Assembly (NCBI GenBank): GCA_027449605.1
Contig: DAIDLH010000030.1
Location: 62,001-126,000, forward strand
Source: Candidatus Muproteobacteria bacterium
GTDB taxonomy: Bacteria; Pseudomonadota; Gammaproteobacteria; Acidiferrobacterales; Sulfurifustaceae
DNA: 64,000 nt
Direction: 5' to 3'
In this document: one piece after another, positions 43,826 to 45,831 of the stretch
How the letters are laid out: each line of letters opens with the position of its first letter
Position numbering within the stretch: the stretch's first letter is position 1
Translations under genes and position numbers: made by a program
The notes under the pieces: generated by a model
Seen by the model: only the letters and a program-made list of their open reading frames with translations
Told to the model about the DNA's origin: nothing
Database searches by the model: none

Positions 43826-43856
43826 TCCCGGTCTGTTTTCCGGTTTGGAGACAAAA

Positions 43857-43885
43857 TAAAAGGGCTTCCATCGGAAGCCCTTTTT
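43857..43885. terminator. Bidirectional intrinsic terminator
   Basis: AAAGGGCTTCC and GGAAGCCCTTT form an 11-bp stem with a 3-nt loop, flanked by A-runs on the left and T-runs on the right. It serves the small plus-strand gene and rpoH, which converge here. Confidence 0.93.
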
Positions 43886-43905
43886 GTTTGGTACGGAATG
43901 GTGGT

Positions 43906-44772
<867 letters not shown>

Positions 44773-44824
44773 GTCTGGGTACCTCCTGCTGCTCATCCTT
44801 CCGGCTTCTCTTGGGTAAAGAATC

Positions 44825-44851
44825 TTAGCACTCTGCGCATAAGAGTGCCAA
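44825..44851 (-). promoter_or_regulatory. CIRCE element (HrcA operator) upstream of rpoH
   Basis: Minus strand TTGGCACTC, nine bases, GAGTGCTAA: one mismatch from the consensus TTAGCACTC-N9-GAGTGCTAA, and exactly 27 bp. It is placed to block the rpoH promoter or early transcription. hrcA itself is outside the window. Confidence 0.9.
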
Positions 44852-44913
44852 ACGGAGGAAAAGTTCGTTCGTTTGTCCCTGTTATGGGGTGGAAACCGGG
44901 GATTGCAAGAGTT

Positions 44914-45827
44914 TCAGCGGGGTTCGATGGCCCGCAGATGTCGTCCTACCGCCAGCCGCGAGCCGAGCCAGCCGAGCAGCCCGCCGGACCCGATCAGGGT
45001 CAGGGTGGCCAGGAACCCCAGATTTTCCGCTTCGAACCGGCTCCCGTAGAGGCCGGCCAGGTTGTCGACAGGGCCGGAAAGGAGCAGCAGACCCAAGGCC
45101 AGCAGCAGCCATGCCAGCAGCGCTCCGAGCAGTCCCTGCAGGGTGCCGGCATAGAGGAACGGCCGGCGGATGAAGGCGTTGGTGCCGCCGATGAGTTTGG
45201 TGATCTCGATTTCGTCGCGCCGGTTGAGCACCGCGAGCCGGATCGTGTTGCCGACGATGAGCAGCACGGCGACGGCCAGCCCGGCGGCGAGGATCAGCAC
45301 TCCCTGCCGGGCGAGTTCGAGCATGGCATGCAGGCGGCGCACCCAGTCGAGATCGAGCTGCGCGAGGTCGACCTCGTTGTACCGGCGCAAATCCTTGAGC
45401 AGCGTTTGCAGCTTGTCGGGGTGCGAGTACGCCGCGGCCGGATGCACGACCAGCAGCGCCGGCAGCGGGTTGCGATCCAGCGCGTTCAGCGCCTCGCCGA
45501 AACCGGACAGGCGCTTGAACTCGGCCAGCGCCGCGTCGCGCGAGACGTAATCGACCCAGGAGACGGCCGGCAGGCGGCGGATTTTTTCCGCGAGCTTTTC
45601 GATGGAAGAGCCCGGCACGTCCTGTTTCAGGAACAGCGATATCTGGCCGTTGTCCTCCCAGCCGCGGGCCAGGCGCTGGACGTTCTCGATCGCGACGTAC
45701 AGGCCGGCCGGCAGCGCCAGCGTGATGCCGATGACCGCCACCGTCAGGAACGTGGCGACCGGCGTGCGCGTGAGCTGGCCTAGGGTGTAGAAAAAAACCT
45801 GCGCATGACGCAAAAAATAATTTTTGA

Positions 45828-45831
<4 letters not shown>
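44914..45831 (-). CDS. ftsX: Cell division protein FtsX
   Basis: 305 residues. One N-terminal membrane helix (~25-45), a periplasmic domain (~50-170) with SWVDYVSRDAALAEFKRL, then three more helices around GVLILAAGLAVAVLLIVGNTIRLAVLNRRDEIEITKLIGGT. With FtsE it forms an ABC-type complex that activates peptidoglycan hydrolases at the septum. Its ATG overlaps the ftsE stop by four bases. rpoH follows downstream, as in E. coli. Confidence 0.96.

Follow-up and report, generated by a model that had tools for sequence, protein, structure and literature searches.

The gene for sigma-32, rpoH, in the stretch of Candidatus Muproteobacteria DNA analysed here (64,000 nucleotides; hereafter, the window) appears to be governed by a three-input promoter, in which a predicted HrcA-binding dyad, or CIRCE operator, coincides with predicted sigma-E and sigma-70 promoters, so placed that bound HrcA would occlude both forms of RNA polymerase. 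A probability of roughly 0.78 is assigned to this reading, in which HrcA binding and the transcription starts are deduced from the DNA sequence. One short stretch of DNA would probably let three signals set the level of rpoH, the master heat-shock regulator of proteobacteria, whose model organism E. coli has no hrcA.

The CIRCE operator ahead of rpoH

The rpoH gene occupies 43906..44772 on the (-) strand, and its 288-residue product was recognized by the sigma-32 families TIGR02392 (384 bits, cut-off 323) and NF005143 (398 bits). Translation probably begins at the ATG at 44772, behind a ribosome-binding site, AGGAGG, read directly from the sequence at 44782..44787 (-); the alternative start of a longer open reading frame at 44796 is unlikely. 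Upstream, on the same strand, lies an ftsY-ftsE-ftsX cluster, whose last gene, ftsX (44914..45831; TIGR00439, 357 bits), stops 62 bp short of the operator. The operator itself, at 44825..44851 (-), has the form TTGGCACTC-N9-GAGTGCTAA, reads TTGGCACTC-TTATGCGCA-GAGTGCTAA on the rpoH strand, and departs from the CIRCE dyad TTAGCACTC-N9-GAGTGCTAA at one of 18 positions. With up to three mismatches allowed, it was the only CIRCE-like match in the window, and none was found in 100 dinucleotide-preserving shuffles of the window, which ruled out a chance match. These results bear out the original prediction of a CIRCE one base off consensus upstream of rpoH, and also its distance of about 50 bases from the start of this heat-shock gene, which is correct because the start following AGGAGG is the ATG at 44772, 52 bp from the operator.

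Structure at the RNA level was also considered for the region. An E. coli-type mRNA thermosensor in the rpoH leader was rejected on a coarse test, in which the start region proved no more stably structured than its shuffles (z=+0.95). An Rfam search gave sub-threshold matches only, at about 43829-44107 (the 3' end of rpoH and beyond), with none at the operator; among these, a match to ctRNA_p42d just 3' of rpoH at 43851-43884 of the window (29.8 bits, cut-off 50), overlapped by a match on the opposite strand, is most likely a terminator hairpin.

Predicted promoters overlapping the operator

Not noticed in the original prediction was an overlap of the operator with two predicted promoters, one for sigma-E and one for sigma-70. 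Upstream regions of rpoH from relatives, aligned on the CIRCE, show conserved bases outside the operator, although most of the DNA around the conserved site varies. GGAACTT recurs at a fixed distance upstream of the dyad and, together with CTC of the left arm and an A at the third base of the N9 spacer, gives the pattern GGAACTT-N15/16-CTCTnA. The established sigma-E (RpoE) promoter consensus is GGAACTT and gTCtnA separated by 15-16 bp. The candidate in the window is CGAACTT-N15-CTCTTA, with a predicted -35 (CGAACTT, 44861..44867, (-)), off consensus at its first base only, lying 15 bp upstream of a predicted -10 (CTCTTA, 44840..44845, (-)), which has C for G at its first base and is completed by the operator, CTC coming from the left CIRCE arm and TTA from the N9 spacer. 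The source genome encodes RpoE (TIGR02939, 316 bits, cut-off 236). Shuffling this 300-bp region 2000 times yielded a motif of this kind on its own in 26 cases, so that the argument for sigma-E rests on conservation: GAACTT, with at most one mismatch, stands at the fixed offset from the rpoH CIRCE in 50 of 54 relatives, though in only 24 of 41 named beta- and gammaproteobacterial genomes, and at the same offset from other CIRCEs it was found at none of 21 groES and none of 15 hrcA sites.

The predicted sigma-70 promoter, TTGGCA-N18-TAAGAT, is formed by the two operator arms. Its -35, TTGGCA (44846..44851, (-)), lies within the left arm, and its extended -10, TGC-TAAGAT (44822..44830, (-)), consists of the right arm and three downstream bases; independently, a promoter scan of 44700-45000 returned this pair as the only sigma-70-type promoter. 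TAAnAT is present at the rpoH CIRCE in 48 of 54 relatives and 32 of 41 named genomes, and at none of the groES (n=21) or hrcA (n=15) CIRCEs. The third base of the N9 spacer is A in 52 of the 54 relatives' rpoH CIRCEs, though outside the arms, and the downstream base d3 is T in all 54, versus A in 20 of 21 groES CIRCEs.

CIRCE arms intrinsically resemble -35 and -10 elements, TTRGCA and TGCTAA being inherent in them, and it might be supposed that HrcA represses rpoH through a plain operator, with both promoter motifs its by-products and transcription coming from another promoter upstream, where a weak TTGCAA/CATAAC pair is in fact found in the window. This explanation is unlikely, however, in that GGAACTT lies outside the CIRCE and A at the third spacer base, A at d2 and T at d3 lie outside its arms, yet all are fixed at rpoH CIRCEs and absent at groES CIRCEs; hrcA CIRCEs have no comparable pattern, and the weak upstream pair is not evident in relatives. 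Separately, a Methylophaga sp. with no detected hrcA carries a sigma-E-type GGAACTT-N15-CTCTTA about 92 bp before rpoH, with a -10 region (TTTACACTC) resembling a decayed CIRCE arm.

Distribution of the operator and of hrcA

Of 60 relatives, 57 had a locatable rpoH, and 54 of these carry a CIRCE just upstream when up to two mismatches are scored. The exceptions are two genomes without hrcA (G058 and G059) and G023, whose dyad has decayed to TTGGTACTC-N9-GGATGGTAG; in the latter, as in some Xanthomonadaceae, the promoter-like bases persist. A typical relative has three CIRCEs, consistent with sites at groES, hrcA and rpoH, and hrcA was detected by HrcA family search in 55 of the 60. The operator was further surveyed (at most three mismatches, within 300 bp of rpoH) in named genomes, 78 of which offered upstream DNA that could be used; there it tracks hrcA, being present in 38 of 46 genomes with the gene and 3 of 32 without (Fisher p=6e-11, a statistic that ignores relatedness). 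The three carriers lacking hrcA are metagenome assemblies, and of the eight hrcA-bearing genomes with no such CIRCE, four are delta- or alphaproteobacteria. Carriers include Methylocaldum, Dyella, Nitrosomonas, Herbaspirillum, Polynucleobacter and Pandoraea, and the sampled enterobacteria, vibrios and Shewanella have neither hrcA nor an rpoH CIRCE. By these sequence counts, the predicted rpoH CIRCE is common in beta- and gammaproteobacteria that retain hrcA. An exceptional arrangement can be ruled out, and there is a published precedent in Geobacter (PMC545781). In Pseudoalteromonas luteoviolacea, a perfect CIRCE lies 123 bp ahead of the rpoH match, and the only HrcA match is a very divergent one (E 1.2e-11, in a 316 aa frame).

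These comparisons also speak to whether the dyad might act as RNA, as a terminator or hairpin blocking read-through from ftsYEX into rpoH. A scan does classify the dyad as a stem resembling a terminator, its tail containing T's, but a run of five T's follows it in only 1 of 54 relatives, on which ground a terminator or RNA hairpin at the dyad was ruled out; moreover, the exact CIRCE letters are conserved and not pairing alone, presence of the dyad follows hrcA, and the predicted transcripts begin inside or after it, all of which leaves the idea with next to no likelihood.

The original prediction depended on hrcA being in the genome and named, as things to look for, this gene and CIRCE sites before groESL and dnaK. 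The one further CIRCE in the source draft genome is a perfect match ahead of groES, but HrcA family search found no hrcA in the draft assembly (91.8% complete). Nor were grpE (best E 0.55) or recN found there, and the DnaK-family proteins seen are only distant paralogues, 43-45% identical. In a complete genome of the same genus (G005), recN-nadK is followed by the divergently oriented hrcA-grpE-dnaK-dnaJ, with a CIRCE preceding hrcA, and hrcA was found in 8 of 8 genomes searched from the same genus and 11 of 11 others from the same family (19 of 19). An assembly gap is the likeliest reason for the absence, because a whole block (recN-nadK/hrcA-grpE-dnaK) with normally indispensable genes is missing, and since the neighbouring genes are gone as well it is not taken as a refutation, even though the assembly literally contains no hrcA. 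The organism itself presumably has the gene. A dispersed short repeat with a 26-bp motif (within GGATTAACAGGATTTTTCAGGATTCGCAG) occurs on at least eight contigs of the source genome and at L189:10293-10323; the motif sits between hrcA and nadK in G005 and was not found in the 64-kb window.

Were the lineage instead to have lost hrcA, the site would be a relic retained only for its double role as promoter, as might be argued from the draft genome and from the few genomes in which promoter-like bases outlast the operator. The absence from the same assembly of grpE, recN and all but distant DnaK paralogues, the presence of hrcA in all eight genomes of the genus and the perfect CIRCE kept at groES make a relic very improbable, and true loss was set aside in favor of the gap.

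Evidence bearing on joint operator and promoter function comes from the Xanthomonadaceae, where the dyad is present in 52 of 58 rpoH upstream regions. At left-arm position 7 and the mirror position, 11 of the 52 dyads have C/G, 8 have C/C, 29 have G/C and 4 have G/T; none has G/G. In the G/C class, TTAGCAGTC-N9-GACTGCTAA, the left arm drifts to GTC and the other arm is changed to match, such that the sigma-E -10 becomes GTCnnA, nearer consensus, while the change in the other arm makes the dyad symmetric again. The pattern suggests that operator and predicted sigma-E -10 functions are both under selection, although shared ancestry could also produce the arm association. The operators of this family span canonical CIRCE, one-sided and two-sided (GCAGTC-N9-GACTGC) forms, and in a few members the dyad is lost and a TGGTAAAAT-like -10 retained. 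With slightly better than even confidence, the CIRCE found at rpoH in beta- and gammaproteobacteria may be regarded as a co-encoded operator and promoter, in which the same bases would serve HrcA, sigma-E and sigma-70. The operator could then be reshaped by selection acting on the sigma-E -10; the symmetric change to TTAGCAGTC-N9-GACTGCTAA in Xanthomonadaceae, where HrcA may read the altered rpoH operator, would be an example.

Proposed regulation and comparison with known systems

That a functional HrcA operator appears to control rpoH, stacking the HrcA and sigma-32 circuits as first proposed, is supported by conservation of the site, its co-occurrence with hrcA and the presence of hrcA in all 19 near relatives. 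At normal temperature, GroE would keep HrcA active, and HrcA on the CIRCE dyad would hold rpoH low by covering the -35 and -10 of the sigma-70 promoter together with the -10 and start region of the sigma-E promoter. When unfolded proteins occupy GroE, HrcA would lose activity, releasing both promoters and allowing the sigma-70 promoter to fire, and under envelope stress sigma-E would add its own initiation at the same site. New sigma-32 would turn on the chaperones, restoring HrcA and closing the loop; GroE feedback on HrcA is established for HrcA elsewhere. Sigma-32 supply would then depend on the state of protein folding in the cytosol through HrcA, on envelope stress through sigma-E and on housekeeping transcription through sigma-70. 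If this is true, many beta- and gammaproteobacteria would repress sigma-32 transcription via HrcA, coupled to envelope stress on the same 45 bp, and the shift from repressor control to control by sigma-32 only could be tested in lineages with intact, drifting and decayed operators.

The closest likeness is in Geobacter sulfurreducens, where Rodionov et al. (2004; PMC545781, Table 8) placed a CIRCE dyad ahead of rpoH, at -51 relative to its start, and further CIRCEs before groESL and hrcA-grpE-dnaK-dnaJ; as here, this is a prediction. That organism differs in being a deltaproteobacterium, and the excerpted portion of the paper mentions no overlapping sigma-E/sigma-70 promoter (PMC545781). For the promoter, rpoH P3 of E. 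coli, an organism without HrcA, likewise pairs an RpoE-type sigma factor with a GGAACTT-type sequence. The same pairing is found at fam, the rpoH gene of Bordetella bronchiseptica, which SigE was shown to transcribe in vitro in a paper that mentions neither HrcA nor CIRCE (PMC3490749). In the open-access literature on HrcA with rpoH, no report of a sigma-E/CIRCE overlap at rpoH was found. An rpoH CIRCE (the Geobacter prediction) and SigE-driven rpoH (Bordetella) are known, and what appears to be new is the placement of the predicted operator on both predicted promoters. Within the relatives themselves, groESL and hrcA-grpE-dnaK-dnaJ share the same operator, groES and hrcA each being preceded by a single site, but whereas groES has a separate TTGACA/TATcAT promoter, with the CIRCE directly downstream of it, the rpoH CIRCE contains the predicted promoter.
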